From Isoetes taiwanensis (taxonomy: Eukaryota > Streptophyta > Lycopodiopsida > Isoetales > Isoetaceae): 64,000 nt of DNA. The DNA is taken from NCBI GenBank assembly GCA_021234155.1, contig JAJEKV010000077.1:124001-188000 (forward strand), given 5' to 3'. A model generated the notes under the pieces. That model searched no databases. It worked only from the letters and a program-made list of their open reading frames with translations, and was not told where the DNA came from. The stretch's first letter is position 1, and every line of letters starts with the position of its first letter. The position numbers were made by a program, and so were the translations under genes. Of this stretch, positions 20,834 to 56,079 are shown piece after piece.

Positions 20834-22886
<2,053 letters not shown>

Positions 22887-26308: not shown

Positions 26309-27170
26309 GCAAAATTCAAACAACTTAAGAAGGAGCATTATTCTTCAAACAACTTAAAGAAGGAGCATTATTCTGTCAAACAAATAAAAAAAGATTGTGA
26401 TAATGAAGATGTACTCTGTATAAAAATTGTGCAGATCAAGTCTTGTCCCATTTAAAATAGCATCTAGAAATGCTTCCAGGCCAGGAATGAGATGGCCATG
26501 ACGTCATAATGAAGATGTACTCTGTATAGAAATTGTGCAGATCAAGTCTTATCCCATTTAAAACAGCATCTGGAAATGCTTCCAGGTCAGGAATGAGACG
26601 GCCATGACCTAAATTGCATACCATATCTGCATCTAGAGAGCATTTCGCTGACTCAAAATGGTAGCAGAAGCAGCCTTTTGCTTGGCCATATTTTGCCCAG
26701 AAATAGTTTCCTTGCTTCTCATTTCAAGATTGCCTGCACAATTCAAACAACTTAAAGAAGGAGCATTATTCTTCAAACAACTTAAAGAAGGAGCATTATT
26801 ATGTCAAACAAATCAAAAAAGATTGTGGTAATGAAGATGTAGTCTGTATAAAAATTGTGCAGATCAAGTCTTATCCCGTTTAAAACAGCATCTAGAAATG
26901 CCTCCAATCCAGGAATGAGATGGCCATGATGTCATAATGAAGATGCACTCTGTATAAAAATTGTGCAGATCAAGTCATATCCCATTTAAAACAGCATCTG
27001 CAAATGCTTCCAGGCCAGGAATGAGACAGCCATGACCAAAAATTGCATAACATATCTGCATCTATAAGCATTTTGCAAACTCAAAGTGGTAGCAGAAGCG
27101 GCCTTTTGCTTCGCCATATTTTGCCCAGAAATAGTTTCCATGCTTCTCATTTCAAGATTGCCTGCTATAT
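26309..27170. repeat. nested tandem duplication (two units of about 425 bp, each with two sub-repeats of about 97 bp)
   Basis: Units begin with 'caacttaa(a)gaaggagcat' near 26,320 and 26,745. Each contains two copies of 'tctgtataaaaattgtgcag' followed by 'atcaagtc' and 'aatgcttccaggccaggaat', then 'ttgcttggccatattttgcc'. On the minus strand the shared part reads 'GNLEMRS.ETISGQNMAKQ', which looks coding but is not recognised. Confidence 0.85.
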
Positions 27171-35688: not shown

Positions 35689-37025
35689 AATGAATGTTTT
35701 TAACTTGGACAACATTAAAAGAAAAAAGGAATATCTTGCCTACACAACATATTCTAAACTCAGATGGACCATAAAAAGCGTTACTTGTTTTATGTTATAT
35801 CAATCGAAGCACATGCATCTTGCTTCTCCAATATCTTGAGTACGAAAATTAATTAATTTTTTGTTGCAGTCCCCAGTTTGATCGATTTGGCTGAGCAAAC
35901 AGAAGTATGTGATCATGCTTCAATAAATGTGAGGACTTGGGTATTAAAAACAAGTTAAGATGGATTTCCAATAGCGGCTATGGCACTTCTAAAATTAAAA
36001 GCGAACCAATGGAGCATTTACAATCATAGCTGCCGCACACGCAGTCTTTCCACCAAGTGTAGTAGGTGCTTCATTGGCAATCCATTTCAATCTGCCATCG
36101 AATTTATATTCTACTGGGCAATATTGCCTGGTAGAGGAAAAAATCGATGGCAATAAGCCTCGTTTTAGGCGGGAACTCTATCCCTCCTTGTTACAGCGAC
36201 CCCAATCATGGCTTCTTAGGAACAAGGATCAACTCAAGCTAACGATTCATGCTGGATAGAATTGGAAAGAATAGTGCAGGTATAAAAATGGCAGGAAACA
36301 GTCAATTTGTTTCGTTTTTTCAAGTCAATTTGTTCGGAGTTTTCTTTTAAACTGCTAAAAAATTTGGGTTCTTAGATCTTACTTGGCATCTATTGATCTA
36401 ACGAGATGGGTTCTAAAATTCAACTTGGGACAACGATGGAATTGAGGAGAATTATCTGATTTGAATCAATCTTGCCAGTAGAAGAACCTTAAAGAAATCA
36501 AGGATCAACAAAGGCGCTCAATAGTCGATAATATGTTATGCCGTTGTTGTTAATGGAACTTCTAAGAGTAGAAAATGCCGGCAACTAGAAGAATTAACTT
36601 GTTGCCATCTGGAAACGATGATGCCATATCATTTTTTAATCTGTCGCTAGTGGAAATCCAGCCTTAGGCAAAAGAAATTTAAATCTATTACACGTCAATG
36701 AGCGGAGAAGATCGTCGTAGCTGTAAGCTCAACGCCATAGCAAAACAATATAGCTTAATATCTGTCAGTAGCTCAAAGTCAACAACCATTTCGTTGTGCT
36801 TATTGCTGGATTGAGTGGATTGTTGCCAAAGTTGGCTTCGAAAGTATTGAGGTATTTTATCTTCTTTGGTACAGTCAGGCTACGAGAAACAGGGGGGTTC
36901 AACCCAGAAAATCCGGTAACTTTTGAAAAAATCTGGTGCCATTACTTATTCCGGGCGTGGTTCCGCAAAAAAAAAGAAAGCGACGGCCGATGCCCTTGTT
37001 AATTTCTGAGGGCAAAAATCGGGTA
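35689..37025. other. intergenic, no confident gene
   Basis: A possible exon at 35,879-35,941 follows a strong acceptor ('PSLIDLAEQTEVCDHASINV'). A minus-strand frame ending near 36,003 reads 'IANEAPTTLGGKTACAAAM'. Neither is recognised. Confidence 0.25.
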
Positions 37026-39054
37026 ACTCTACAAGGGAGTAGAATATTTTTTTTTATACACTAATAATATAATTTATATGAAATATATGACTATATGACC
37101 AATAACAAATAAATAAATATACCAATCAACCAACCAAAAGAAAATCCCAATCCTTTTATGTTATGTGCCCTTTTATTGGTACTATAATAAAGTTAGTTAA
37201 AATCTCCTCTTCTTCTTCTTCTTCTTCTTCTTCTTCTTCTTCTTCTTCTTCTTCTTCTTCTTCTTCTTCTTCTTCTTCTTCTTCTTCTTCTTCTTCTATA
37301 ATAAAGTTAGTTGTGCCATTAATAGTTAATAAAGGTGGGTGGGTGGATACTTTTTGGTCCCTCTAAATTAGAAAAAGAACGTGGATTTGGATATCAATCC
37401 CACCATTCATTCATTTGGAGAGAAAAGTTTGTGGCCTTAGATAGAAGTTAAAGAGGAAAAAAATAAGGAAGAGGAGCGGAACAGACTAAAGCGGTGTCGG
37501 TGCCGATGCCGTTGCTGCCATCGTGGGTCTTCAAGCATTGCTCATTGCTGTTGGCAGTTGGAAAATAGAAGAAAAAGCATGGATGGAAGCTAGGAGGATG
37601 AAGGAGCAACCTAAGGATCGAGCTTCGATGTCACTGCATTGACTTCCTTCTGCATGAATTTTCAATCAACAGCAGATCTCTTTTTATATAAAAGCATTGT
37701 TCATCAAGAAGCAAAGGCTAGTGATGCAAATTGTTTACAGGGAGCATTTTAAAAGTGGGATTTCATATAAGGAAAAGAAATTTGTTTGAGCAATCCCTTG
37801 CCCACAGGTTCTATGCCTTGAAACAGTCCCCTTTTCATTTAATTCAATTGCATCCCGTCTTTGTGACATTGATTATTAGATTTAATCAATGACAAGATCA
37901 AACAAAGCTAAGAAACCAAAGGGTGTTCTTGGCCAAAATGTTTTGGATATGCTTAAAAAAACAAGGAATAAAAAAAGAGATTCAATTAGGTGGGACAACA
38001 ACATCGAGTTCCGATGATAGTGCCTGAGGCATCTACTAAACCTTCCTTTCAATATAAATGGCTGGAGCAACTATAACAAGGACGAGGATGCAATATTTTG
38101 TACTATTTGTGAAGTTTATGGGATTTCAGGTTTTATTTTATCATATCATGTTATTTTGCTCCTTATTTATCCTCTGCAATTTAGTTATTTCCTGTTCATT
38201 GTACAAGGAATACTCCATTTTCTAAAGGTGGCTCACGAAATTTTAAGACCTCAAGTTTCAATGAGCATGCCAGTAGCAAGATGCATGTGTTTGCTTTCTC
38301 AAAGCAAGAGGCTGCCAAGAAACTAATGAAACCTTGCCATCGCTGTTCAAAAATCTCTTGATGCTATTGATGGACTATAGTGAACTTGTTTCGTGCAGCG
38401 TACACTGTGGCATCCAAGTCATTGTCATTCTATGATTTTGAGCATATAATTGAGCTTCTTCAATTGGCAGATTGTCCTTCTATTACGAGGCAACTCTATC
38501 ATACTGATAAAGCTTGTCAAGGATTTATTTCTTGTATGAGTAAGAGCATTGAGGATGATATAGTTGAGAAACTGAAGAGTAGCCCTTTCTTTGGCTTGCA
38601 AGTTGATGAGTCAACTGATATATCCACACAACAACATATTGTGCTGTGTGTTGCTTATTTAGAAGATGGTTGTGAGCGAAAGAGAAGTCTTCTTGGCATG
38701 TTAACGGTAGAACAATTTGATGCAAACTCTTTATGTGATACAATACTTCAACATTTGTCGAAGCTTGGATTAGAGAAACTTACAATGGTGGGATTTGGTT
38801 CGTCTGGTGCTTCTGTGATGACAGGAATAAGAACAGATGTTGCAGCGAGACTTAAAACCAAGTACCCCTTTATGACAGCTACTCATTGCATTGTCCCGGA
38901 CCAATCTTGCGGTCCAAGATACTAAAGTTTGTAACATGGAATGGACATAACATATTGAAAAATTAGTGAATATCTTAGCATATCATTTCTCTTGCAGTAG
39001 CAAAAGATTGACAAAATTACAAGAACTGCTTGAGGATAATGCATGTGAGATTCT
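37026..39054 (+). repeat. left arm of a large inverted duplication
   Basis: The arm matches 39,147-41,125 in inverse orientation over about 2 kb, at roughly 90% by eye. It carries a (TTC)n tract of about 30 units (37,207-37,297) that the other arm lacks. Confidence 0.9.
37207..37297 (+). repeat. (TTC)n microsatellite
   Basis: About 30 uninterrupted TTC/TCT units between two 'ctataataaagttag' words. Present only in the left arm of the inverted duplication. It produces a spurious poly-serine frame. Confidence 0.95.
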
Positions 39055-39115
39055 ACTTCTTGTTCAAGACACTCGTTGGTTGAGCAGGCATGGAGCTATA
39101 AGTAAGGTTTGTTTT
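37889..39115 (+). pseudogene. hAT-type transposase, truncated (left copy)
   Basis: From ATG 37,889 ('MTRSNKAKKPKGVLGQNVL'), then an interrupted zinc-finger region, then a long frame from about 38,380: 'NLFRAAYTVASKSLSFYDFE', 'SSPFFGLQVDESTDISTQQH' and 'VGFGSSGASVMTG', and near the junction 'QDTRWLSRHGAISKV'. The VDESTDI block is typical of hAT-family transposases and their KIAA1586/ZNF862-like relatives. The C-terminal hAT dimerisation domain is absent because the copy stops at the inversion junction. Several frame changes are present. It is the mirror twin of the copy at 39,147-40,349. Confidence 0.75.
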
Positions 39116-39146
39116 GATACCAATGAGTGTCAGAATCTTTTCAAGA

Positions 39147-40349
39147 CGTATCTCACGTGCATTATCCTCAAGCAATTCTTGTAATTTTGTCAATCTTTTG
39201 CTACTGCAAGAGAAATAAGATGCTAAATAGTTCAATAATTTCTCAATATATTGTGTCCATTCCATGTTACAAACTTTATTTGCATCTTGGACTGCAAGAT
39301 TGGTCCAATGGGCAATGCAATGAATAGCCGTCATAAAAGGGGTACTTGGTTTTAAGTCTTGCTGCAACACCTGTTCTTATTTCTGTCATCACAAAAGCAC
39401 CATCCGAACCAAATCCCACCATTCTAAGTTTCTCTAATCCAAGCTTCGAAAAATGTTGAAGTATTGTATCACATAAAGAGTTTGCATCATCTTGTTCTAC
39501 CTTTAACATGCCAAGAAGACTTCTCTTTGGCTCACAACCATCTTCTAAATAAGCAACACATAGCACAATATGTTGTTGTGTGGATATATCAGTTGATTCA
39601 TCAACTTGCAAGCCCAAGAAAGGGCTACTCTTCACTTTCTTAGCTATATCATTCTTAATGCTCTTACTCATACAACAAATAAATTCTTGACAAGCTTTAT
39701 CAGTATGATAGAGCTGCCTCGTAATAGAAGGACAATCTGCAAACTAAAGAAGCTCAATTATGTGCTCAAAATCATAGAATGACAATGGCCTAGATGCCAC
39801 GATGTATGCTGCACGAAACAAGTTCACTATAGCTCCATCAATAGCATCAAGAGATTTTGAACAAGGCGCGACAAGAGGTTTCACTAGTTTCTTAGCAGCC
39901 TCTTGCTTTGAGAAAGCAAACACATGCATCTTGCTACCGGGTATGTTCAACCGAAACTTGACGTCTTAAAATTTCGTGAGCCACCTTAAGAAAATGGAGT
40001 ATTCCTTGTACAATCAACAGGAAATAACTAAACTACAGAGGATAAATACGGAGCAAAATAACATGATATGATAGTGATAAAATAAAACCTGAAATCGCAT
40101 AAACTTCACAGGTAGTACAAAATATTGCATCCTCCTCCTTGTCATAAATATCCACTTCCATTGCTCCAGCCATTTATATTGAAAGGAAGATTTAGTAGAT
40201 GCCGCAGGCTCCTCCTCACTCTCATCGGAACTCGAAGTTGCTGTCCCACCTAATTGAATCTCTTTTTTCTTCCTTGCCTTTTTAAACATATCCAAAACAT
40301 TTCGGCCAAGAACACCCTTTGGTTTCTTAGCTTTGTTTGATCTTATCAT
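39147..40349 (-). pseudogene. hAT-type transposase, truncated (right copy, inverted)
   Basis: Minus strand from ATG 40,349 ('MIRSNKAKKPKGVLGRNVLD', 'SSSDESEEEPAAS'), then a TTF/BED-like finger region ('WLEQWKWIF'). After an intron-like gap it continues with 'MNIPGSKMHVFAFSKQEAA', 'SPFLGLQVDESTDISTQQ', 'FSKLGLEKLRMVGFGSDGA' and 'LQELLEDNARE'. It keeps more of the family's reading than the left copy in the N-terminal part. It ends at the same place as the left copy, so both are halves of one inverted duplication. Frame changes interrupt it. No terminal inverted repeats of a whole hAT element were recognised. Confidence 0.75.
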
Positions 40350-40609
40350 TGATTAAATCTTATAATCAATGTCATAAAGACCAGATGCAATTGAATTGAA
40401 TGAAAAGGGGACTGTTCCAAGGCAAAGAAACTGTGGGCAAGAGATTGCTCAGACAAATTTCTTTTTCTTATATGAAATCCTTTTTAAATGCTCCCTGTAA
40501 ACAATTTGCATCACTAACCTTTGCTTCTTGATGAACAATGCTTTTATATAAGAGTCGAATCGTGCAGAAGGAAGTCAACGCAGTGACATCGAAGCCCGAT
40601 CCTTGGTCC

Positions 40610-40668
40610 CATAAGCCAATTGGTCTCCGTGGACGATAAAAATCCTATTCTATTCTATTATTCATCCT
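40610..40668 (+). repeat. short retroposon insert in the right arm only (copy b)
   Basis: 'ggtcccataagccaattgg', 'tctccgtggacgataaaa', 'atcctattctattctatta'. The equivalent place in the left arm (around 37,600-37,612) lacks it, so it arrived after the duplication. It matches the 30.9-kb and 17.3-kb 3' ends. Confidence 0.7.
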
Positions 40669-41124
40669 CCTAGCTTCCATCCATGCTTTTTCTTCTATTT
40701 TCCAACCGCCAACATCAATGAGCAATGCTTGAAGTCCCACAATGGCACCACCAGCACCGGCACCGCTTTTGTCTATTCTGCTCCTCTTCCTCTTTAACTT
40801 CTATCTAAGGCCACAAACTTTTCTCTCCAAATGAATCAATGGTGGGATTGATATCCAAATCCACGTTCTTTTTCTAATTTGGAAGGACCAAAAAGTATCC
40901 ACCCATCCACCTTTATTAACTATTAATGGCACAATTAACTTTATTATAGGGCTAACTTTATTATAGCACCAATAAAAGGGCACGTAACTTAAAAGGATTG
41001 GGATTTTCTTTTGGTTGGTTGATTGGTATATTTATTTATTTGTTATTGGTCATATACTCAAATGTTTCATACAAATACATATATATTATTAGTATATAAA
41101 AAAATATTCTATTCCCTTATAGAG

Positions 41125-42655
41125 TGTGACGTTCCAGGATAACATACGATCCGAATACATATATTATACTGTCACGTCACACGTACATGTCATCACGACA
41201 AGTACTTGAGAGCCGTAAAGGGTTGCACCTAGGGGGCAACCTCGTATGTTGCGCATGTATATTAAACATATGCAATTAAAACCCCCTTGCCAAGTGGCAA
41301 TACCCCATTTGGTCCCTTCTAAACTAACCCTAAAAGTTCATATATAAGGAACCAAAGGGGAAACCCTAAACCTTTTTCCTTTCGCATTTTGGGGTTTCCT
41401 GAGCCATTCCGGCTAAGGCAGGCTGCCATTTCGCATTGCCAGGCGCCGCTGAACCCGCCTTTGCACATTAGATTCATCAGAAGCAGTAGTCTTCAGCAAG
41501 AACGAAGGCATGGACGCAATCCGGGGAGCTGGAGCTAGCCAAGGATCAGGTAACTTGCGATTCTATTGTGCAAAGCCGGCTCTTAGCCCGGCAATGAGTT
41601 AGGATAATATGTTAGATCAGTCATATCCGCCTTGTAGATCCTAAGATTACCAACCATAACGAAAGAACCTAACCTTGTATGTTTAGGTAAGATAGATTAG
41701 ATCTTATTCAGTATTTCAGTTCTTTGATGTTGATGATGTTCCATTCTATGCTCTCCTGTGTATGTGGGAAGGGGGGTAGAGACCCCGAAACCTTCAGTAG
41801 CAGATGATCCTAGATAGCCTCATTAATTCCTAATTAATGCGGCCCGTGTACAAGAGCCCACCTGGTTGTGAGTGGCGGGGCTAGACCGGTGGAATAAGGG
41901 GGACTTGTCCCATCACTGATTGATCCCTCTGGTGTGTAAAGCCTACTGGGGATCTAAGCTGGCTAGGCTTAATGGTTTGCCACTGCGTGTGGGCAAGGCA
42001 TGAGCTCGACACCTCTTGGGTGATACATCATCTTCAATGAGGTTCAAGTCGAATACGGGCAGTGGCCCTCTAGCCGCCTGTGATGGGCATGCATACCTCT
42101 GGAGGGGAGGTGACTCTCCTCCTGCCTCATCAGGACTGGGGAGATGCAACCCAGCAGTAGCCCTTTTGGCTACACACCCGGCAGGCTACGGTCCGGGACT
42201 CTTCAAACTACTCTGCAAAGTGTGCACGGGAGGGACGGATGGAGTGGACTACCCAACAGCCATGTTTTTATGCCAGCCCAATCCATTTGCCATGAATTCG
42301 TCTACATTGACTTTTGGAGACCCAAGCCGTCAGTCGATCCCCCAGGAGTCTGAGCCTTGGCTAGGATTCCCCTATGTTAGTGTTAAAGATGTTGTTGTTA
42401 CACATGTTATGTTATGGTGCATTCACCCTTCGGGGTGACTTTGTCGATGTATTGATGTCATGCTTATGTTTATTCACGCTTTCGCAGCTAGGACGGTCCC
42501 GAGGGAAGACGGGGCAAATGACCCATCCATTCTTCCTCACTGATCCAGTATTTATGATTGGTATCAGGTGGATGGCCCCTGTCAGTTTGGCTACCAGGGG
42601 GATGAACTCCGCCTTCTAATACGATGGGAGCATCGTAGAAGTAGGGGACGTCACA
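41125..42655 (+). repeat. 5' LTR of the histone-bearing Ty3/gypsy element
   Basis: Starts TGTGACGT and ends ACGTCACA, giving the usual TG..CA ends within a short inverted repeat. It is 1,531 bp long and followed directly by the primer site. Promoter-like elements are a TATA box at 41,341-41,348 and a telo-box AAACCCTAAA at 41,361-41,370. No second LTR lies in the window, so its age cannot be estimated. Confidence 0.85.
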
Positions 42656-42656
42656 G

Positions 42657-42668
42657 TGGTATCAGAGC
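42657..42668 (+). other. primer binding site (tRNA-iMet)
   Basis: TGGTATCAGAGC, complementary to the 3' end of plant initiator methionine tRNA, one base after the LTR end. It fixes the LTR boundary and the element's strand. Confidence 0.95.
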
Positions 42669-42874
42669 ATGATCTTGGTAGACCAAGATCGAGCACTGAC
42701 CATTCCCTGTTAGAACTAACCATAGACTTCCAGTCTTGGGAATAGCACCCCAAGCATGAACCTCGAAAATTAGATTTTTTTTTTCTAATCCTTAGAGCAG
42801 CAAAGTAGAATAATGCTAAGCTAGGATGAATTATGCAAAACCCTGAAAAATTATGGCCAAAAAAGATGTGACCC

Positions 42875-42937
42875 CTCACAGAGTGCACCCTGGGCATTTC
42901 CAAAACTTTTGAGAATGCTTCTCGCGCACTATGTGAG
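42875..42937 (+). promoter_or_regulatory. hairpin element, copy 1
   Basis: 63-bp imperfect palindrome: outer arm CTCACAGAGTGCAC / GCGCACTATGTGAG, inner arm GCATT / AATGC, centre CAAAACTTTTG. First of a pair upstream of the H3-like ORF. Confidence 0.8.
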
Positions 42938-43087
42938 TGGTGGACCCATGTTGACCCAGATAGATGCAAAATTAGAGCAATCGATAGCCTTGGGGCAGCT
43001 TAAACCTTGAATTTGAGCTGGAATTGTATGTTATAACACTAAGAAACTGCTTATAAAATGAAAGTTTAAGTAAAAAAGGGATGACCC

Positions 43088-43150
43088 CTCACAAAGTGCG
43101 CCCTGGGCATTTCCAAAACTTTTGAGAATGCTTCTCGCGCACTGTGTGAG
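43088..43150 (+). promoter_or_regulatory. hairpin element, copy 2
   Basis: Same 63-bp plan as copy 1, 213 bp downstream of it, with outer arm GTGCGC / GCGCAC. It lies 113 bp before the TATA box of the H3-like ORF. Confidence 0.8.
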
Positions 43151-43262
43151 TGGTGGGTACGTTTTTCCTAAACAAACCCAATGTATTAATCTTACAGACA
43201 CTAATGCTTTACAGAATGGTACGACATGAAATTGCAGGTTCAAACCCCAAAATCCCCAGACC

Positions 43263-43270
43263 TATAAATA
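43263..43270 (+). promoter_or_regulatory. TATA box of the H3-like ORF
   Basis: TATAAATA within 'cctataaatag', 112 bp before the ATG. A telo-box-like 'attagggtt' follows at 43,275. The parallel site before ORF2 (45,119) has the same context. Confidence 0.65.
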
Positions 43271-43374
43271 GACCATTAGGGTTCTTCATTTTCACTTTCC
43301 TTCTCCAGCTAGCTGCTCTCCGTCCAACAAGGCGATTTTTAGGCGCTCGGAAGGCGATCAGCTTATTTCAAAAC

Positions 43375-44484
43375 ATGGCCTGCACTAAACAAACCGCTCG
43401 GATGGTAGTGCCAGACGATTATATCAGCGCCCAGGTCCTCGCAGCCCAACAGAAGGCCAGAGAGGCTCAGGAGCGAGCCAAGCGAGAAGAAAACCCTGAC
43501 ACGAATCCTGATGCTGAGGAGGAGGATCAAGAGCAGCAGGACGAGGAAGAACGCCCCCAGAACCCTGAAGAGCAGGAAAACCCCGAGAATCAGGGCGATG
43601 GAGGAGAGGACGAGGATGACGAGGACGAAGCACTACCAGAAGAGCTGGTACGTAAGTTGAAGAAGATGGCGAAGAGGAAGAGAGCGGCAAAGAGGAAAGG
43701 GATTGAAGAGAAGCTGGAGCAGAAGAGATTGAGAGAGGAGCGTCAAAAGTTAAAGGAGGATAAAGGGAAGGATCCTGAGGTGGCCATGAAACCCCGGCGC
43801 AAGACGGAGTCAACACCAACGAAAGGGGTAAGCATAAGGGAGCGGGAGCCCGACAGGCCACCGTCATCATCGGACACTGAGTCGGATGAAGATGAGTCAG
43901 GGGTTCCACGCCTAGCAGAGGGCTCGGGACCTTCGAATATAGATGTTGAGGAGGAGGAATCTGCAACCGCTCCTCCATACCCCAAGTGGCCGAAGCCGAC
44001 AACAGATCCGAAGAAGGGCAGGCCCGCACGTGAGTCATACGTACTCAAGCATGAGCGAGAGTATAGAAAGAAGTTGAAGGAGTACAACGAGTACATGAAA
44101 ATGTACGAGGAGTACTCGAAATACTATGAAGAACACAAGGTAAGGTATGTGGAGGGAGGAAGGCCATCCAAGAAGAACACGTTGAAGCCGCCCCCCGGAG
44201 AGACCCATACCCTCGAAGAAGCCAATGAAGAGAAAGGCGGACTCCTATTTTGCGAGAGCTGCTCGGGAGATCCGTCATTTTCAGAGGAGCTACGGACTGT
44301 TGATACCAAGGGCTGCCTTCGCAAGATTGACCCACGAGATCCTGCAAGAATTCGACAAAACCAAGAGAGTGACAGATGGTATTCTACTCGCGTTGCAGGA
44401 GGCAACAGAGCAGAAACTTGTCCAGCACTTCGAAGACTCACTAGCATGTGCTCTCCATGCAAAGAGAGTAACTTGTATGCCTAG
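43375..44484 (+). pseudogene. accessory ORF1: histone H3-like protein, tail and linker part
   Basis: The first residues MACTKQTARM match histone H3 (MARTKQTARK) at A1, T3, K4, Q5, T6, A7 and R8, with Cys for Arg2 and Met for Lys9. A long linker follows. It is acidic (Glu/Asp runs, about residues 35-85), then basic Lys/Arg (85-135), then Ser/Asp-rich with Pro/Lys patches, then a Tyr/Glu/Lys coiled-coil-like stretch ('EYNEYMKMYEEYSKYYEE'). The H3 fold lies in the overlapping last part of the ORF region (next entry). It sits between the primer site and gag on the element's strand, so it belongs to the retrotransposon and is not a neighbouring host histone gene. The linker makes it far longer than host H3 (136 residues). 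This copy is broken, with about one break. Confidence 0.8.
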
Positions 44485-44527
44485 GGATATGAAATTAGCT
44501 AGGTTTATTAAGAAGGAAGATTGTTAA
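44225..44527 (+). pseudogene. histone H3 fold part of accessory ORF1
   Basis: The translation aligns without gaps to the H3 core from the alpha-N helix to the C-terminus: 'AREIRHFQRSYGLLIPR', 'FARLTHEILQEF', 'LALQEATEQKLVQHFEDS' and 'HAKRVTCMPRDMKLAR'. By my own count about 45 of 89 positions are identical to canonical plant H3. These include the ALQEA, FED, HAKRVT and MP.D blocks that form the H3 dimer interface and DNA contact. It diverges strongly in loop 1 and ends 'KKEDC' instead of 'RGERA'. It is neither a recent host H3 copy nor obviously a centromeric H3. It follows the charged linker of the same accessory ORF. Host origin by capture is inference. Confidence 0.9.
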
Positions 44528-44676
44528 CCTGTTGTAATTACAGAACTTTTAGTAAATATAAAAATATGTTTTGATCAAGTTGAAGTGCAAAATTGTAAGT
44601 AATAAGGTTGTATTAATGATATGTGCATTTGGAATTACCTAATTTGGACAAAAAGTCAGTGTTTTTGACCCCACCC

Positions 44677-44739
44677 CTCACAGAGTGCGCCAGGAGCATT
44701 TCCAAACTTTTTGAAAATGGCTCTCACGCACTGTGTAAG
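44677..44739 (+). promoter_or_regulatory. hairpin element, copy 3
   Basis: Third 63-bp copy (CTCACAGAGTGCGC ... ACGCACTGTGTAAG), just after the H3-like ORF and first of the pair upstream of ORF2. Confidence 0.8.
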
Positions 44740-44879
44740 TGGTCGACTACTGATCTCTGTCCAGACTTGCCCAAATGAAGAAAGTAAGAGCACAAACTGC
44801 CCTAACTCGCCGAGATAGGTAGGATTCTACCCTTAGATTGTAAATTTTGAGCCATCTTGGACCCAAGCGGGGCTTACCC

Positions 44880-44943
44880 CTCACAGTGTCGCCGGGGAGC
44901 ACTTCCAAACTTTTGAAAGTGGCTCTCGCTGGCGGTATGTGAG
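44880..44943 (+). promoter_or_regulatory. hairpin element, copy 4
   Basis: Most diverged copy, 203 bp after copy 3. The inner arm is GCACTT / AAGTG where the others have GCATT / AATGC. The outer arm is CGCC / GGCG where the others have GCGC pairs. Pairing is kept despite the changes. Confidence 0.75.
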
Positions 44944-45118
44944 TGGTCGAAAAAAATGGCCCAAACTCATCCCAAGTATCTCAGAATTAGATGAAATTTG
45001 TTGTAATAGGATCATTAGGATGCACTCTTTAACCTAGATTACCTATGATTTGCATAGCAGCACCTCAAAGTGATAGATATCTCCAAACCCTAAAATTTTC
45101 TCAAACTAGGGTTTTGCC

Positions 45119-45126
45119 TATAAATA
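45119..45126 (+). promoter_or_regulatory. TATA box of ORF2
   Basis: TATAAATA within 'cctataaatagg', 119 bp before the ORF2 ATG. A telo-box AAACCCTAAA lies upstream at 45,085, and 'actagggtttt' just before it. Confidence 0.65.
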
Positions 45127-45237
45127 GGACCACAACCCTCATTTGCACCCTACTCTATTGCTCCTCACTCCAAGGTGATTTTTCAGTTCCCAGAGGCACT
45201 TCCATATCTGTTTGATAACCCCAGCAGCTCTAGCATC

Positions 45238-46759
45238 ATGGCAACATCTGCATTCAACAACGCCATTGCTCATGTGGCTGACGCTGACATCGACTCGGTC
45301 TTCGCTGTCTTTCAGAAGGGGATCGATGTGGATGCCACCATCAATGCTACTCCTTACTATCAAGAGGTCATGACCGAGTTCCATGCCAAGATAGTGCCCT
45401 CTCTGATAGAACTTCCCCCTTGCATAGGATACTTTGCACCTAGCATGGCCCTTCGTGCAGCTCTGCGGACATTCCAAAGATAGACAAGTACCTAGAAAAT
45501 AAGGCTACCCGCATGCCAAACTACATGTCTGTAGCTGTAAATAGGAGGAAATATTTCTCTTACACTGCAGCTAGCTATAGCTATGTCCTTGTCCCAAAGA
45601 GCCCAAACCCAGATAGAAGAACCCTCTGTTCAACCCCTAGAGCTTGAGCCCATGGCCATGGAAGCATGTGAAGAGGAACAGATGCTTCTGGAGTACGAAG
45701 AGGCGGAGCAGGAGGAAGGACATGGGTCTGACATGGAAGACATCATCGACGTCGACCCCACACAGGAAAGGCAGCAAGCCGAAGAAGACCTCCCGAGCTT
45801 CGAAGAGGGATTAAGAGCAACAAGGACAGCCCCAACACTTGGGTTAGGCATCACAAGTCTAACCCCGGTCATCATTCAAGGAGAAGCATACCTGATACTT
45901 CACGACATGAAGAACCTCCCCGAGTGCAGGGACAGGGGTTACGTATGAGCTCCTACACCTCCTACGCCAGCAGCCCGGCCTCGATGACTTCATCGACTAG
46001 GAGACTTAGGACTTCCCCATCAGTATAAGGGAGGCCCGGACGTACACTGTCCAGTCATCAACAGATATAGAAGCCTACACCGACATTAGGTAGATGACGG
46101 CACAACAAGATTAACCTCAGAGGAGGAGTTCATAGCGCTCCAGGAGCGGATGGGAATCAGAGGGAAAACAACGAGTGCACTCCTACCCAGCACCTCTGCA
46201 GTAGCACCAGTCGGACAGGAAAGAGGCGGTATCAACTTGACCTCTTCTAGGTCCATGTTTGGCGACTACAGGGAGATGATAGCAGTACCAGTGGACGAAT
46301 ACTTCAAAAGACCACGGGGGCTCCAATCAGGTCGAGGAGGAGGAGGGGGAGTTAGGGCACGACAAAGCCCTCAGGTTCTACTTACCACTGCTCACTGATG
46401 GAAGGATAGCAGTCATACACTGCCAATTCAGCCCATGGGGAGAAGAAGGGGTCTTCATGCTGGTTGCCCTCTCAGGATTCGGAAGACATGCCCGGATGGC
46501 CCCAAACATCGACCATGTCATCCTGGTCAAGAGGACAATAGCTTTAAGCATCTTCGACTTTGTAGTTCCCTATAAGCAACAGGGCAGATTGGCCGTCACC
46601 ACAGCCTACACATCGGAGAGAAGGGTCGAAGACTTGATAACAGCACTCCAAGGAGGCATGGCCACCAACATCCTTAGGAACTTGGGGCGAACAGTCGGCA
46701 CGACCCAAGTGAAGAAGTTCTTGGAGGACAACCCAGCTTATAGAAGATTCCAAGAATAG
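45238..46759 (+). pseudogene. accessory ORF2 of the element, unknown function
   Basis: Starts at ATG 45,238 ('MATSAFNNAIAHVADADIDS'). It continues through an acidic Glu-rich part (about 45,640-45,800) and a later hydrophobic/basic part ('LVALSGFGRHARMAPNIDH', 'RTIALSIFDFVVPYKQQ', 'LRNLGRTVGTTQVKKFLEDN'). I recognise no domain; it is not a histone, envelope or chromodomain by eye. It has its own upstream hairpin pair and TATA box, parallel to the H3-like ORF. Broken, with about three or more breaks. Confidence 0.55.
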
Positions 46760-46921
46760 AATTAAACTTTTTAATTGTCTATCTCTATTATTGAATGTAA
46801 AAATATTATATCTTATGAATATAAGTGATGGTATTACGCATGTTCTTTTGATATATTTTGTCCCCACAACTATATCATCAAATAAACAAATGCAATAACA
46901 AACAAAAAGCTAATCATCGGA

Positions 46922-48046
46922 GTGCAATCTAATGTGTATGCAGCTAGAGCACCCTGGAATGTGGAACAAGATAGACAACCTCTGGAAGACCAAACACCCG
47001 CAAGGCAATTTCAGCCAAGGAACATGTTTCAGGAGTTCGAGGCACCAACCTCAGAAGAAGAAATATTGCAGATAAGGTCGGATATCCACGAAATAAGAGC
47101 TTTGCTGGCAGGGGCGGTAGCAATGGCACCAGACCAGAATGTCCAACCGGAAACACCGGCCGGCAGAGCAGTCAAAGCAAAGAAGAGAAGCCGGAGAAGG
47201 AGATCACCTAGCACGGATTCCTCCAACTCTAGTTCTGACTCTGACTCCGAATCCAAGGAGCAGGAGAACAATCGATGGGACCGCCGGGAAGGTCCCAACC
47301 GTGATAGAGGCAGAATGGAAGCCAACTATCAGAAGAGAGTCGACTCGGCACTGAGCAATGTGTGGAAAGCCAGAAAGTTAGAATAGTTCTCAGGAGACAA
47401 CAGGTCTGGAATGGAAGCCGAGGCATGGTTGGATGAAATGAGGGAGTATGGGAATGCTTATAGCATGAAGGATAAGGACAAGGGCAGGGTAGCAACAACA
47501 AACCTCAAGGGAGCAGCCAAAATTTGGTGGAAAGGCTATGCCAAAGCCCATGGGTTAAGCAGAGATAGCTGCAGATTCAAGAAGTTCGTCAAAACATTTA
47601 AGCGTCATTATGTGCCAAGGGAACACAAGTGTCATATGATGCAGCAGTTCTATAGGTTGGAGCAGGGCAATAAGACAGTCCAGAAGTACACTGAAGAGTT
47701 CATGAGGCTGAGGCTCTATGTGCCAAAATTGAGTGAAAGACATGCAGTGGAGGGGTACATTGAAGGCTTGAATGAGAAGATCAGGAAGCTAGTAAGAGCA
47801 ATAAACCCCAGAACAGTGTCAGAAGCAGAGTCTAAAGCTGCAAGCTTGCAAGGAACGGGACCTCAAGGGAGTGGGCCAAGGCAACAGTACTATCAGGACA
47901 ATGGAAAGGCTACAGGAAGCTACAGCCCAAGAGCAACAAGCCCAGCAGCTACCAGACCTCAGTACAATGCAAGCTATGGGAAGCAAGGCAACAAAAATTT
48001 TGGCAAGCAGGACAAGAAGCATGTCAGTTTCAAGGACAAGGAATAA
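46922..48046 (+). pseudogene. gag of the Ty3/gypsy element
   Basis: The N-terminal part has a Ser/Asp-rich stretch. It is followed by the retrotransposon gag domain: 'EAWLDEMREYGNAYSMKD', 'LKGAAKIWWKGYAKAHG', 'FVKTFKRHYVPREHKCHMMQ' and 'LEQGNKTVQKYTEEFMRLRL'. This is the typical capsid-forming region of Ty3/gypsy elements. A Gln/Ser/Pro-rich tail leads into the zinc knuckle. Broken, with about one or two breaks. Confidence 0.9.
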
Positions 48047-48122
48047 GGAGGTGGTTCAAACTACTCCAAAGCAGTGAAGCAGTTCTTACAGGGAGAAGAG
48101 ACAGGAATGTATTGAAAAGCAG

Positions 48123-49155
48123 TTGTGCTTCAGGTGCTTCCAGCCAGGACATTGGATACATAACTGCCCATTTGTGATGAATGCGGCATTGGCAGAGCTA
48201 GGAGGATGGGAGAGACCCCCAGAGATCGGCAAAGAAGATGCTCGCGACTACATCCAGGGTGAGTGCCACATCTTTGCCGCTATTGACTCCGAGAATGCTG
48301 AGAGTCAGTACCAAGTCATTTCGACGATTGGGAATGTCCGGGCCAAGTCCTTCATAGTGTTGATAGACACAGGGAGTACCCACAATTTTGCTTCGCCAAG
48401 GATGGTAGAGATGTTGAAGCTCAAGCCTTTGAAGTCCAAACCTAGACCAATTGTGTTGGCGAGTGGGGCAATCCGACACACAGCAGGGAAGAGGATCAAC
48501 TTCGACATAGACTTGTCAGGTATCAATGTTGGAATGGGAGCAGAAGTGATGAACATCGGCAAGTATGACTTGATCATAGGCATGGAATACCTTGGACCAG
48601 CGGGAGCCGTGATTGATTGTGGGAAGCGGAAAATAACCTTAATGACACCAGCGGGCAAGGTCATTGAGATAACAGGTAAAGAAGTCACCCCAATCATGCA
48701 ATGTATGTCTAGTAAGAAGCTACTTAAATGGATAAGGAAGGAGCAAGTGGCCTATGTCTTTAAACTCAAAGTCGACGAGCAAGAGGCAGAGGAGGACAAA
48801 GAGGCCAAAGCGTTGAGCAAGCTCCCAAAGCCGATAGCCAAGTTGCTGAAGGAATTCCATGATTTGTTCCGAGATGAGATTAAGCAACTTCCACCTTACA
48901 GAGGAGTCGAGTGTGAAATAGCACTTGAGCCAGGAACGAAGCCAACAAGTAAGGCGCCCTACAGAATGTCACCTCAGGAATTGACAGAATTGAAGAAGCA
49001 ATTGCAAGAGTTGCTAGACCTAGGATTTATAAGACCTAGTGTCTCCCCATTTGGAGCACCAATACTCTTACGTCAAAGAAGAAGGATGGGAGTCTTAGAA
49101 TGTGCATTGACTATTGTCAATTGAACAAGCACACCATCAAGCACAATTATGCATA
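48123..49155 (+). pseudogene. pol of the Ty3/gypsy element: zinc knuckle, protease, start of reverse transcriptase
   Basis: CCHC knuckle 'CFRCFQPGHWIHNC' at the start; aspartic protease with 'LIDTGSTHNF' (DTG at 48,366-48,374) and 'DLIIGMEYL'; linker; then RT N-terminus 'EFHDLFRDEIKQLPPYRGVE' and 'APYRMSPQELTELKKQ'. Sequence similarity stops at about 49,155, inside RT. The catalytic YxDD region, RNase H and integrase are not present. The long open frame indicates limited decay up to that point. Confidence 0.9.
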
Positions 49156-51167
49156 CGGTTTTCCTTTTTTCTTCCCCCTTTTGTATCGGATCTGCCCTTT
49201 GTCTTTGATGAGGCTCTTGCAATGGCCCCGCCAAATCTCTTGAGTTAGGCCTTGCTTTTCGTTTCTATTTTGGATTTGCTTTTGACGGTTTTGGCTGGTT
49301 GATCTCTCAAGCTTCCAGTCTTGCAACCTGTTTTTGTGCAAGATGAGTATTCGATTTTGCCTCTGTCAGATCGATTGGTGGTAGGGCTCCACTTAGAACT
49401 TTCTTTTTTTGCCTTCCTGGGCTTTCCTGATTTGGTTGCAATCATTTTCCTTGTGCGACGATTTTTGCATGATTTCTCAAACTTCCAGTTCTTACTTGAA
49501 TCAGTTATGCTTGATTGCTCAAACTTCTAGTCTTGCAATCGTCCTGGTTGTGTCAGTCTGCTGTGTTGGATTTCGAATCGACCTCCTTTAGCCAAATCGA
49601 TTGGGTTTGTTGGATGGATTTCGCTACTTATAGCCTCACCTTCTGTATCTCGTCGTTAGTCCCGGATCCTCAGTCTCCATCTTGGCCTCAAAAATTTCCC
49701 TTTCTAATCTACCTTGGTTGCGTAACTGGAAGCGCCTTTGCCTCTGTTCTGCCTTTGCGCCATCGCAGGTTCTTTAGGAAAGGGTTACCTGGCCTTGGTT
49801 TCCCTTGTCCCCTTGGCTGGGGGATACCAGTTCCCACTTCCCCCTATTTAGTTTTGTTGATTCTAATGGTTTTTTTACATCATCTAGTAGCTTGCCTTAG
49901 TAGACATCAATTTTTTGGGCTCTGGATAATCTGCTTTACACTAAGGAGAGTGTGTTCTTCTCGTTGCTAATATCTACGACAGTTTATGAATGAATTGTTG
50001 GATAGTTGTTCCACAGTTAAGCAAGATTAGGCCAAAAGTTGAATCTGGATTGTTATTGGTCGTTTGTTGAGAGTGCTTCTCCATTGTCATGGAGATCAAG
50101 ATTTGTGGGTAAAAGCATGGAGGTGGGGGACACTTTTTGTGTCAGCGACACATGGTGCTTAGTGGGTGCTTTCTGGGGCTATTTTCTTTGTATTTTTGAA
50201 AAATATTTTTCTTTTATTTTTTTTTGATATTTTTTCCTAAAACGCATTCATATTGCGCCTTGTAATACAAAATTTCAGCTTCATCGAAGTTATAGAAAAA
50301 AAGATAAAAATAAGTAAAATTTTCAATATTAGGTGCTTAGAGGGTGCTGGGCTGGCGCAAAAATGCCCCCCATCTCCATGCTTTGACTCTTGTATCCTGT
50401 GTAAATTAGTGAGTTTTTTGTGCACTACAAACTGTTGTAGGTCATTATAAGCTTGTGCACCCAACAAACTTTATATCCCCACTGTGATGTTTCTATATAA
50501 ATCTCACTGCGAGTTTGCGATATAAATCCTCACACTAACGTCGTTTTTGCACAGGAAAGTTCGATAGTTATTTTTTGTTCTTTCCATGAGATTCTACTAG
50601 AGAAGCGGCTCTGAAGTGTTTTTCATATTCCATTTAATTCGTCCTAGCAATGCCAATGTAGGTCTTGTACATGGTTCCAGGGTAGTTTCATGAAGGGTGC
50701 CCTAAGGTGTTTTCACATTCTGGTTTTCTTCATACATGTATTGGGATTTGGTTCTTGTTTATATCGTAAAATCTTACTCACATGGTGTTGTTTGAGAAAT
50801 TTTAAAAGTGGTCATTGGTCCATTAACTAAGCTGTTGGCTCTCTAACTTGATGTGCAGTTAGTTGGGGCATGGGTCAACAACATACTCGGAAAGTGCTTA
50901 TTATTCAATTTAGGTTACATTGCACATGTTAACTAGGGTTTGGATCTAGTCTAGGTAATATCATGTTTGCTGTATTCTGATTGCAGGTGATGTTTTACGT
51001 ATATGTGGTAGGTGGTATTCACCGTAGATATTCTCATTTCATCAATTCTTGAGATTTTACAAAGTCTCTTTCATTTAGTTTTTCTGTGGTTTTCGACATT
51101 CTACACGGTATCTTTGATGCAGATTTTGGTCTTTTAGTATAATGCTTGTACTGCATAGCTTTTACGG

Positions 51168-51310
51168 TGCCTTAAGCCTTTACATGTGCCTAGATGGCTT
51201 CATCTAATACATGAGCTTCATGCTTTAAGCTTTTACATGTGCGTATATGGTTTCATCTGTTGTGCCTTAAGCCTTTACATGTGCCTAGATGGTTTCGGCT
51301 TCTCCATACA
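51168..51310. repeat. three-copy tandem repeat of about 60 bp
   Basis: 'gccttaagcctttacatgtg' followed by 'cctagatggcttcatct', repeated with variation. Confidence 0.8.
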
Positions 51311-52657
51311 TGAATGAGCATTAGATCCGGTTTAGTAGTGGTTTCTTTTATAGCTCATTTGTTGCATTTTGATCTTTGGATCCGCGCTTGGAATTTCTTA
51401 TATATCGTTCGTGGCCTTTTTTGGTTCAACCTTCGTATATTTTTATGTTCATCTGAAGTCATCCATCACCCCTCCATTGAAGTCACATTGAAGTTTCGCA
51501 TTTGTACTGCTTTGCTGGCACTTGCTAATTTTGTATGTTGGTTGATGTCGGCAGTTCAGTTTCCCATGGCTAGTAGATTGATGGTAGTTATCATATCACG
51601 ATTTTATTTCTAGACTAGATTTCTTTGGGGGCTCAATATAACGTCCTTCTTGTCATGTTTTGGATGGCATATACTACATGTTCATTTTACTTGGTCTCAT
51701 CTGGTCATCATATTTACTTCTACCTCTAGTGCATTACATGGTTGCTTTTTTCCATGTAGGGGAATATGTGTTGGAGACTGTCCAGAGCATTGCAAGCTGT
51801 GGTCGTTTTTTGACATTGCTTTGTTGGTTTGGTACACACATTTGGATCCTTTTTTAGACTACTTGCGTCTGGGATAGGTGTGGTTGGATACGTCATTCAC
51901 AGCACACGGTCATGTTTATTCTTGTTCTTTTTGTTCTTTGTTCCTTTTTGTCCTATTTGTTCTATTTATCTTTGTCGTTATTCATTTGCCTTGTTTCTCC
52001 TACTGTTTCATTTGCTTTGCATTGTTTCTCCTACGGTTTCATTTACTTTGCATTGCTTTGGTTTTGGTTCGATGTGCTCCAGTGTTCATGTCTGTTCCAT
52101 TCTAAGCAGTTTTTATGTTTCTAGGTGTTTTTTACATGATTGTGACTTGAGATCTCTTTTGTCTGCGTTACTGTTTTCTACGTTTCTATTTTTGTTTTCG
52201 CTTTGGCCCAATTTGTAGTAATTTCTTGTTCGTGCTGGTTATGTTCCAAGCACTCTGTCGAGATTGCTTATTGGGCATTTATATGTGTTTTGCTCTTGTT
52301 GCACCTCTCGTCATTTTTCGTGCTCCTTGGCTTTGTTTGCACTTGTTATTAGATTCACCCATTTTGTTCTAAGTATCTTGTTTGCCCCATCCCTCCTAGA
52401 CTTAACACCCCCTTGTACATCTAGTCTTTTCAAGAATCTCGTAATAGTTGGTACTATTCTTCGGTTCAAGTTACATCATTATTTCCATTACTTCTATTGG
52501 TATTTTATGGCTTTATTTTGTTCCTTTGTCTCCTTTTTCATTCCATTGTCGCACTTTGGCATGCTTCTTTAATGTTGTTCTACATTTCGTGTCTTTTGTT
52601 GTTTGTGTCTTGACAACCTCTAGTGCTACTTGTCCCATCTAATTTGTTATGGATTGT

Positions 52658-52690
52658 CCTTCCCTCCCTCCCTCCCTCCCTCCCTCTCTC
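52658..52690. repeat. (CCCT)n microsatellite
   Basis: About six CCCT units, then CTCTCC and CCTT units. Confidence 0.9.
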
Positions 52691-53939
52691 CTTCCTTCCT
52701 TGTCGTTGCCATTTTCACCCTCTTCATTTCATGATTCCCTTGTTGGGTTTGTTATTGGATTTGTTTTAATAGTTCGGACATGTTCCATTTACTTCTCTTG
52801 TGTTGCTGTTTGTTGTTGTTTGATTGTCGTTTTCATAGATTTGTTTGAACTTTTTCATCTTCCACTATATTGTTTCATTTGTTCACTTGATGTTTTTCGT
52901 TGGTTGCACCCTCTACCTCATTCTTTTCTTTTGCCTTCGTTGTCTCATTTATCACTGTATGCTCCTCATTGTTCCAGTCTTCTAGCCCTCTTTTCTTGCT
53001 CCTCTTCCTCGTTCTCCGTGTTCTCTACTGGCTCCTTTTCACTACATTTTGTTTGACCCTTGTAGCCTCGTCTCTTCCTTTGATTTCTACATTTCATGTT
53101 CATCTCTTTTTCAGGTCCTCTATTTGGTCCATGATGTGCCACATCTGCTTGCCTCATCTAGCTCTCCTATTTGACTGCTTTTTATATCCCATCGATTCCT
53201 AATGTTCTTTCAGATCCTTCCTGCTACAAAAGCTTCATCTTTTCCACTTCTTGGTGTCCCTTTAGCTTCTGAGTACTCCTTGCCTTGTTCACGTTGGCCT
53301 TTTGTGCTCTGTCCGACGACTCTTTTATCTAGCCCTCCTATCCCATTGTTCCCTGTTCCTAGTTTTGGCTTGTTCGCTTTATCCCCTTATTATCCATTTT
53401 ATATTTTCTTTGTTCTTCCATTCGTTAGGCTGTGTATTTCGAGATGTGCCCCTTTTGATATCATTTTTCCGCTTCTGGTCCATGAGTCATTTGAAATCTT
53501 TAGCTTGTTAATATCATCATGATCGTGGCATTATTTGTCCTTATCCCATAAGTACGTCTCCCATCTCGAACTGCATTGTTTGTATCCCTCATTTTTATGT
53601 TCCCTCTTTCAGCTTTCTCTACAGTATTACGTTGTGTCCTTCATTTTTATGTTCTGTTTTCCATCTTTCTCTTCATTGTTACATCGTGTCTTTCATTTTC
53701 ATACATCCCATCATTCGACTTCCGGCTTCCTTGCTCCTTCTACTTCTTTCTTGCTTCATTGTCTCTGTCTTCTCATTTTATTCCTTTTTGCTCCAATTCT
53801 TCTCGATCTCCTCTTCCCCCATTTACTCTGGTTGCCTTGGGTCTCATTTGCGCTCGATGAACCATCTTCTCTGGTTCTCTGAGAATCATTGCTTGCCCGT
53901 TCTGCCTCGTTTGTCCCATTGCTTTACTATGGGGTTGTC

Positions 53940-53961
53940 TTTTTTTTTTTTTTTTTTTTTT
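53940..53961. repeat. poly(T) run, 22 bases
   Basis: Marks an abrupt change from pyrimidine-rich DNA on its left to ordinary AT-rich DNA on its right. It could be the tail of a minus-strand retroposon extending rightward, but no such element was recognised. Confidence 0.7.
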
Positions 53962-55380
53962 AAATTATATGTGTGCATTGTAGTTTTTTATCCTGATACA
54001 TATGGAATCATGAGACATGCACAAGTGGATTGGTGCAAAAATATTCTATGGTATAGCCTAGACTACATAATAAACATTGTAATACGGATGAATGGGTATT
54101 TGTACAATTATTTATTTGCATGCAATATTTGGTTTAGAGTTTTTCTAACAGCTAATACAGGGGAATGTCATCTACCAGAACCATTTACAAGGAACGGTTG
54201 CAGATGAACGTGTGCAGACACTCTGTCTACTGCCTTGAGAAGGTACTTTTCTCTTTTCAAGAATAGGTTTATCCAAGGGACCGAATGTCTAAGAACACTG
54301 CCGAAAAAGGAAAGGCTATTTCTTGTGTTGCATTCTGTTGATGGGAAGGAAGAAGGGTGACCTGAATATGGCCATTAGAAAGAGGTTAGAGTTTGAGAAA
54401 ACAACTGGTCCTAAGAGTAAGAAGCTGTTTGATTTTAGAAGAGCTGCTAAAGGGCCTGCTGGTGGGAATAAGAGTGGCCAGACCAATGGAGGGAAAGAAG
54501 GGAATACAATTGCTGTTAAGGTGGGAAATACTAAGGAAATGATGAAACAGAAGGCCATTGATGCAGATCCGGGCATGCTCTGAAGGTGGCTGAAACTATG
54601 AATATGGCAACAATTACAACTCCACATCTGGGCGATTTGCAAAATTCGAAGTTCATTCAGGTTCTTATTTCATATTTTAGAGCTGAAATGGTAATTTGTA
54701 AATAGATCACCCATAGGAAGGTTAAATATGGATACATTATGCTTGTATGAGATCCAAGATAGTTGGATGACTTAATAACTATTATTATTATGATTTGATT
54801 GAAGATTTGTGAATATCTATGAATGCAAAGATGATAAATACATAATATGGGAATGTAGATCTTAGGAATAGTTAATGACAAGGTAAGATCTGAGATACTT
54901 CATGAATAATATATAAAAATGAAATCCATCAGATCTGAGTTAGGGATGTCTGGCTGGATACCAGGTTGTGGGCCATAATGGGCATAGAAATCCTTGATGC
55001 ATAATATTAAAAGATTTGAGTAGGCTTATGCTTTGATTCTGAGGAATGGTAAGATTTGTGTATTATATGAGTATAATGTGGGATTCTCCATGATCTACAC
55101 ACACTAGGGGTTTTTCATAGCAAAATTATAGAAGATTTACAAGTTATAAGCAGGAACATCTAATCACTATATCTAGTTTTAACTGATTTTGAACATAGGC
55201 TAGGAAGCTTGCTAGTTTGTTTGCACCATATGGCTGAAAGTATATAAGGCTAAAAGGTGAAGACTTCATGGTAAAGAAGTTCAGCTGGTAATGGGGAACA
55301 GGAGGGACTAAGCAGATCCTAAAATTTAACTTGCACATTTATGTCATCAAACATTGTGGTTTGGTGAAGGGGATGAACCC
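53962..55380. other. intergenic with an unrecognised open frame
   Basis: A plus-strand frame from ATG 54,341 to 54,583 is Lys/Gly-rich ('LFDFRRAAKGPAGGNKSG') and may be a relic of the copia element downstream. I cannot assign it. Confidence 0.3.
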
Positions 55381-56079
55381 AAGAAAACCTATAGCTTACC
55401 TGTCAGTTCTGCCTTAATTACCCTACCCTGGCTAATGTTTGGCTGTTTAACTGCAGGTAAGCAGGTTTTCTTGCTCCAAGCTTTGATGTTTATTAAGCTA
55501 TGGTTATATATTTCAAGATATCAAGTAAGCACGTTTCATCTGGAATTCTATACAAACTTACAGATTGCTGATATTTTTACTAAAGCACTGGTGGAGAAAA
55601 AATATACAGGGTTCAGAAGTAAATTGAATGTGATTGACCTGTGTGCTGAAGGAGGAGTGTAGAATATGTTGACATATCATCACACAGGTTGTCAGATAAT
55701 AATTGTGCAGACAATCTGTGAAGATACAATGGTCTATACTATTGCATTATGTGAAGGTTGAAAACAATGTTTAAAACAATGGTTCATACCATTGTATCTT
55801 ATTACTTATACATCAGATATTAAAGCAATGGTTTATACCATTGTATTGCGAAGAATGAAAAAGTATCTGAAATCGAAGGAGGCAAATAAGAATTCAAATT
55901 TTAGTATCTCCTAAGAGCAAGGAGAAATGACCACGAAATCCTTAGAGGCCAGAACCATGCCGTAGCGGTCGGATCCGGCCCCATTAAACTAAGATGTACA
56001 GTCGATTGTAACATACAATGAAAAATCAGGTTGGAGGTTTGAAGCACGAATAGCAAACAGGTTTTCTATTATATCTTCA
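55381..56079 (+). mobile_element. Ty1/copia fossil, 3' end with LTR
   Basis: The last pol part reads 'LQIADIFTKALVEKKYTGFR', the RNase H C-terminal signature of copia elements, and ends at 55,662. A purine-rich tract and then TGTTGACATATC at 55,667 start the 3' LTR. The LTR probably ends at 'atatcttca' near 56,079, giving about 413 bp. The upstream part of the element is missing or unrecognisable. Broken, with several breaks. No partner LTR was seen, so age is unknown. Confidence 0.65.
55667..56079 (+). repeat. 3' LTR of the copia fossil (end inferred)
   Basis: TG start after a polypurine-like stretch ('ctgaaggaggagtgtagaat'). The CA end at 56,079 is chosen by analogy with copia LTRs ending in pyrimidine-rich sequence. 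Confidence 0.5.

Follow-up and report, generated by a model that had tools for sequence, protein, structure and literature searches.

A probable histone H3-like accessory gene ahead of gag in a truncated, chromovirus-like Ty3/gypsy retrotransposon copy of Isoetes taiwanensis

In this work, we analysed a window of 64,000 nucleotides from the lycopod Isoetes taiwanensis (GenBank assembly GCA_021234155.1, contig JAJEKV010000077.1, positions 124,001 to 188,000 of the forward strand), in which all coordinates are counted from the first letter. On one strand, and in this order, the window carries an LTR, a primer site, a cassette, an ORF, a second cassette, a second ORF and gag. The likeliest reading of this arrangement is a truncated, decayed, chromovirus-like Ty3/gypsy copy in which two accessory genes, the first of them H3-like, separate the primer site from gag. 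The features are as follows.

41125-42655, plus strand: 5' LTR of 1531 bp, starting with TGTGACGT and finishing with ACGTCACA; matching TG..CA ends, judged by eye on one LTR only
42656-43374, plus strand: cassette U1 (719 bp), with two hairpins, a TATA box and a leader, before the H3-like ORF
42657-42668, plus strand: primer binding site TGGTATCAGAGC, one base past the LTR end
42865-42945, plus strand: hairpin 1 (z -4.23; repeat D1)
43078-43158, plus strand: hairpin 2 (z -4.06; 93% to hairpin 1)
43263-43271, plus strand: TATAAATAG box; ATG of the H3-like ORF 112 bp downstream
43375-44481, plus strand: H3-like accessory gene, first frame, with the H3-tail start and charged linker; stays open beyond the start of the fold
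44186-44527, plus strand: H3-like accessory gene, second frame, with the H3 histone fold to the stop codon (Pfam, PDB, model)
44528-45237, plus strand: cassette U2, 710 bp long and related to U1, before the second accessory ORF
44667-44747, plus strand: hairpin 3 (z -3.57; 83-85% to hairpins 1 and 2)
44872-44952, plus strand: hairpin 4 (z -3.23; 82% to hairpin 3)
45119-45127, plus strand: TATAAATAG box; ATG of the second ORF 119 bp downstream
45238-46759, plus strand: second accessory ORF, interrupted by several stops and by a change of frame
46886-47386, plus strand: probable N-terminal part of gag, with a stop at its end; its Pfam matches are weak, non-gag and below cut-off
47387-48046, plus strand: gag capsid (Retrotrans_gag 2.5e-17, Ty3_capsid 1.6e-15; the match itself covers 47387-48043)
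48078-49124, plus strand: zinc knuckle, aspartyl protease (RVP_2 2.5e-11) and apparent start of the reverse transcriptase (by eye)

An LTR bounded by TG..CA, a tRNA primer site, and a gag and protease of Ty3 type occur together in the element, as is characteristic of Ty3/gypsy retrotransposons. Its primer site, TGGTATCAGAGC, which we take to be the complement of the initiator tRNA-Met 3' end and thus the usual tRNA-Met primer site, lies exactly where the original prediction, made from the sequence alone, had put a tRNA-iMet site (42,657). Gag, which had been placed at 46,922, is indeed downstream, with the capsid match found at 47387-48043. After the capsid, zinc-knuckle models match below their own cut-offs (zf-CCHC_2 5.2e-05), and the reverse transcriptase, by eye, seems to begin in a broken frame and to be lost near 49170, where the copy is cut. 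Neither self-BLAST nor a direct-repeat search found a second LTR within the window, and in this truncated copy the frames of the H3-like gene, the second ORF and gag-pol are all broken. We call the element chromovirus-like because of its tRNA-Met primer site, the sole pointer in a copy without integrase; such a site is attributed, in the available excerpts of PMC6317226, to most plant chromoviruses and not to non-chromovirus Ty3/gypsy elements.

The surroundings have features of their own. Upstream, a palindrome of about 4 kb (37026-41125) contains two DUF4371 ORFs; positions 37296-40949 self-pair at 86% and the outer arms (37026-37196 and 40952-41125) at 90%, and the outer arm finishes at the base where the LTR starts. 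Past the loss of the reverse transcriptase, 49170-54300 is pyrimidine-rich, with long low-complexity open frames on the plus strand (by eye). Elsewhere in the window there are tandem copies of about 430 bp at 26307-27165, 93% alike and with shorter repeats inside, as well as two host genes, represented by a tubulin exon (22173-22886, Tubulin_C 1e-41) and a class 3 lipase (61931-62575, 9.3e-25), and a Myb/SANT-like ORF (1.5e-12).

That the H3-like gene ends in a histone fold is borne out by the Pfam histone profile: on the plus strand, 44186-44524 matches PF00125 Histone at 4.7e-21, with 75.7 bits against a cut-off of 26.4, and the same translation matches solved H3 chains in the PDB at 7e-21. 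Over 89 residues it aligns without gaps to plant H3.1 and H3.3 (hand-entered references), with 45/89 and 46/89 residues identical, so that the gapless fold with 45 of 89 identities claimed at the outset was recovered on recounting (45-46/89). In an AlphaFold model of the fold with 19 relatives, four helices follow each other in H3 order (mean pLDDT 74, with 91-93 at residues 41-70; pTM 0.47), and Foldseek places nucleosome H3 chains at the top of its PDB matches (best 2hio_C, 2.4e-06, 49% identity, TM 0.53). The rmsd of 7-12 in the rows shown reflects a poor global superposition, and the model therefore backs the order of the helices more than their packing.

Compared with plant H3.3, the fold carries 43 changes in 89 positions. 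Residues R49, R69, R83, C110, H113, A114, K115, R116, T118, D123 and L126 are unchanged, and these presumably include the main DNA contacts and the H3-H3 bundle, while R63 (R63P), R72 (R72H), F84 (F84V) and R129 are changed; with the first three, we assume, residues that contact DNA have been lost. In a protein search with the fold, 37 of the 41 scored candidates matched, none above 54% identity over most of the fold; one match reaches 66%, over a short stretch only. A long protein with the fold was found once among 59 scored candidates, with 224 residues, 49% identity and a CENP-A-like appearance.

At the other end of the gene, the ORF opens at 43375 with MACTKQTAR, in which eight of nine residues are those of the H3 tail. 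The next best of the 2976 ATGs on both strands of the window reaches 5/9, and the tail-like opening noticed in the original prediction therefore stands alone. Residues T3, K4, Q5, T6, A7 and R8 are kept, and R2 has become C, K9 M and S10 V. Beyond these first nine residues the sequence does not read as an H3 tail; the K27 region and the remaining tail are gone and the context of K4 is kept (by eye). What follows is a linker as charged as had been described and slightly shorter than the 280 residues then estimated, at about 270 (272 counted), with 69 acidic and 57 basic residues, KRKR at residue 100 and acidic blocks. Read through to the end of the fold, the product would be about 383 residues long, with helices predicted at 14-39, 89-130 and 218-255 and low-confidence stretches between them, in a model (mean pLDDT 64.5, pTM 0.26) to be trusted for local helices only. 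A protein search with the tail-linker frame gave no match among 8000 scored candidates, low-complexity words having perhaps swamped it.

Tail, linker and fold had been described as one ORF region. All three are present; they do not, however, form a single H3 chain of about 136 residues, as tail and fold lie some 270 residues apart and in different frames. No one-piece product would therefore be expected from this copy, and to read the three parts as one ORF we have to infer a frame change. Both frames bear the marks of coding sequence. The linker frame (285 codons) was open in 0/2000 dinucleotide shuffles and the fold frame (113 codons) in 1/2000, and the GC content is lowest at codon position 2 in both (0.385 and 0.396, respectively), as it is in gag and in the tubulin exon. 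Position 2 GC also shows the coding frame switching with the fold, as nearly the same stretch that gives 0.396 in the fold frame gives 0.566 when read in the linker frame. Decay, splicing or recoding could each explain the frame change. Near it lies a splice-donor-like AAGGTAAGG at 44137, within a plant-like donor AAGGTAAGGTATG at 44137-44149; under an intron reading, the best-looking acceptor (by eye) would remove the conserved first helix.

The original prediction went on to propose that the element had captured and remodelled an H3 gene. An H3-derived sequence with a long charged insert does sit in a Ty3/gypsy element; the part that did not hold up as firmly is H3 as the source, since CENH3 scores equally. 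Against hand-entered references, the fold is identical to H3.3 at 46/89 positions and to rice CENH3 at 48/89, and small profiles built from such references give 84.2 bits for H3 and 84.4 bits for plant CENH3. A tree of 20 rows gives no supported placement, with an end branch of 2.34 changes per column; the nearest row by path is P0002, followed by H3s. Had the source been CENH3, the element might have used its histone to reach or stay in centromeric chromatin, like centromeric retrotransposons. The near-equal identities and profile scores would agree with this, as would the long N-terminal extension and the LLIP and RHFQ motifs, which the fold shares with plant CENH3. We nevertheless consider it quite improbable. 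Loop 1 has the length found in H3.3 and lacks the CENH3 insertion, four CENH3/CENP-A references being 1 to 3 residues longer there; the C-terminus is of H3 length, without a terminal W; the tail reads TKQTAR and not the TKH of CENH3; the FED and MP.D motifs are H3-like; and the nearest rows in the tree are P0002 and then H3s, in a placement without support. Judging from the sequence, we lean towards H3 as the source on account of loop 1 length, C-terminus and tail, with the qualification that CENH3 could equally have been that source.

Whatever its source, the fold has not changed evenly. Five reference sequences, all entered by hand (H3.3, two plant CENH3, human CENP-A and yeast Cse4), agree at 32 positions, and the fold keeps 25 of these. 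When H3.3 was mutated neutrally to the same overall identity, in runs modelled without indels, 16.8 +/- 2.3 such positions were kept, 25 or more in just 2/3000 runs, and 25 kept positions together with an open frame in 0/3000. The open fold frame by itself was rejected as proof of selection, as 288/3000 neutral runs stay open (84 and 96 of 1000 in earlier ones). The conserved columns of the match alignment, of which 16/17 are kept, were also set aside as evidence of selection, because the matches had been picked for words in common with the query. The sequence thus probably diverged for a long time as a histone fold and decayed afterwards, rather than merely rotting from H3.

These figures bear on a simpler account, in which this copy, or a few, acquired a host H3 transcript or a piece of the gene without the element ever profiting from it. 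Captures of this kind are frequent, with 672 LTR-captured genes counted in rice, 1,343 in sorghum and 424 in maize in the excerpted text of PMC3726574, and transduced ORFs sit in one or few copies according to that of PMC7264820; in line with this, a second copy was not found in our protein, viral and prokaryotic contig searches. The viral contigs and prokaryote genomes held no relative, in collections that were not made for plants and whose silence says little, and a phage collection gave no match. Separately, an 18-base pattern in four stretches of bacterial genomes was taken as chance. We regard a useless passenger as rather unlikely, however, given that the divergence is very deep (2.34 changes per column) and yet 25/32 core positions are kept, an outcome seen in 2/3000 neutral runs, that the linker, a long insert, stays open and has a base pattern like that of coding sequence, and that a related cassette serves the second accessory ORF.

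The strongest argument for the H3-like ORF being part of the element comes from this repeated layout of promoter-like cassette and gene, because the ORF is one of two genes arranged in the same way. The original prediction correctly located the H3-like ORF past the primer site and upstream of gag; the second cassette and the broken second ORF (45238-46759), which lie there as well, went unmentioned. Pieces of this second ORF match no Pfam or NCBIfam model above its cut-off. The TATA box TATAAATAG occurs just twice in the window on either strand (43263 and 45119), once for each ORF. Hairpins are spaced by 213 or 205 bp within the cassettes and are 82-93% alike (BLAST pairs), and a local alignment of 43159-43374 with 44953-45237 scores 69, against 32.5 +/- 5.7 for shuffles, none of 500 of which scored as high. 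The kinship of the cassettes is drawn from this local alignment and the hairpins, as an alignment of the whole cassettes leaves the TATA boxes apart. Pairing is kept in the hairpin alignment, where 89.7% of cells pair, compared with 34-56% when it is slid, and covariation does not go beyond that of shuffles (shuffled columns were as good in 442/500), part of hairpin 4 being seemingly misaligned. No Rfam family was found for the hairpins at E up to 0.5 (36000-56000), and comparison of the LTR with the cassette ends revealed no homology. On these sequence features, we infer that the cassettes are internal promoters, of which the hairpins may be parts; alternatively, the hairpins may be landing or target sites for a protein, or RNA signals.

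An integrated accessory gene fits this arrangement better than one chance insertion does, because related promoter-like cassettes precede both ORFs. An unrelated insertion, or a host gene that by chance ended up within this particular copy, would suit the fact that only one copy is known, and hairpins 2 and 3 are direct repeats flanking the H3-like ORF, through which a repeat-mediated insertion is conceivable. Other than the hairpins, however, no repeat of at least 60 bp flanks the ORF, its strand and order are consistent with the element, and each of the two ORFs is preceded by a hairpin pair and a TATA box; we hold such an accident to be very improbable. That the H3-like ORF was an integrated accessory gene of the element is, in our view, likely.

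For what such a gene might have done, the evidence allows us to go less far. We would give even odds to its product having been an accessory H3 variant with a function in host chromatin. Plants silence retrotransposons largely through H3 marks, and the following sequence of steps can be envisaged. The tail stub, the acidic and basic linker and the fold would once have been one protein, made from its own promoter; the basic stretch would bring this H3 variant into the nucleus, where it would pair with host H4 and enter host nucleosomes. With M instead of K at residue 9, and with the K27 region lost but the K4 context kept (by eye), variant nucleosomes could not receive H3K9me2, the plant silencing mark, and nucleosomes free of H3K9me2 would weaken silencing and favour expression of the element. 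We offer anti-silencing as the job of the H3 variant only tentatively, and lean against it. Less probable again, and decidedly speculative, is the fuller picture of a chromatin kit of this lineage, comprising a K4-capable, K9-less long-tailed H3, a second protein, hairpin or palindrome landing sites, twin promoters and nucleosomes resistant to H3K9me2.

VANDAL elements, which are not LTR elements, offer a model for what the H3 variant and the hairpins might do. As described in the excerpts of PMC10398659, VANC of Arabidopsis VANDAL is encoded by the element, removes silent marks and acts on the element's own repeated noncoding motifs; unlike the H3 variant, it is a sequence-specific protein on noncoding DNA and not a histone.

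Transposon-borne H3 genes are known in outline. The excerpted texts of PMC3538342 and PMC6710886 describe hAT transposons with H3, namely H3L in Pyrenophora tritici-repentis and also in Cercospora, Pseudocercospora and Sphaerulina. There, too, an H3-like gene accompanies the genes of a transposable element and is multiplied by it. The hAT carriers, however, are fungal DNA transposons, for which a long linker, an LTR or paired cassettes are not described in these excerpts, and where hAT elements have terminal inverted repeats, the H3-like ORF here sits in an element with an LTR, gag and protease. In plants, the closest parallel in the setting of the gene is an accessory ORF of AlkB type (2-ODD) in Ty3/gypsy elements of Phalaenopsis, in which a host regulatory domain was likewise captured as an extra ORF; as far as the excerpts of PMC9289625 go, the orchid ORF is an RNA demethylase, and its carriers are giant Tat/Ogre-related elements with an Ogre-like tRNA-Arg primer site. 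Gene23 of Grande resembles the H3-like gene, as read here, in being an accessory gene that is driven by an internal promoter of its own and yields a nuclear product; together with the genes of Retand and others, it differs in its antisense orientation and its location after pol and ahead of the 3' LTR, with no clear protein similarity reported in the available text of PMC7264820.

The H3-like gene shares the fold, core residues and tail start with plant H3.1/H3.3 and CENH3, from which it is set apart by its length (about 383 residues as against 136 to about 178), by a residue 9 that is not lysine and by a fold of which about half has changed. A screen covering 121 angiosperm genomes and 25,565 consensus sequences, in which a domain counted only if it occurred in five or more consensuses of a given species, reported 15 extra domains, with no histone among the nine named in the excerpts of PMC9289625. 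The word histone is absent from the main texts of PMC7264820, PMC3726574 and PMC5408684, and the matches listed from the open-licence literature include no H3 gene carried by an LTR element of plants. As far as those matches show, the combination found here is new.

If the reading of a working accessory histone is true, a remodelled H3 encoded by the element itself would act directly as a weapon against silencing, and this gene would be a natural experiment on what an H3 tail needs in order to be silenced. It would also mean that internal transcription units can be accommodated upstream of gag in LTR elements. Beyond this copy, the locus hints that some transposable elements may have carried a chromatin-shaping tool of their own.
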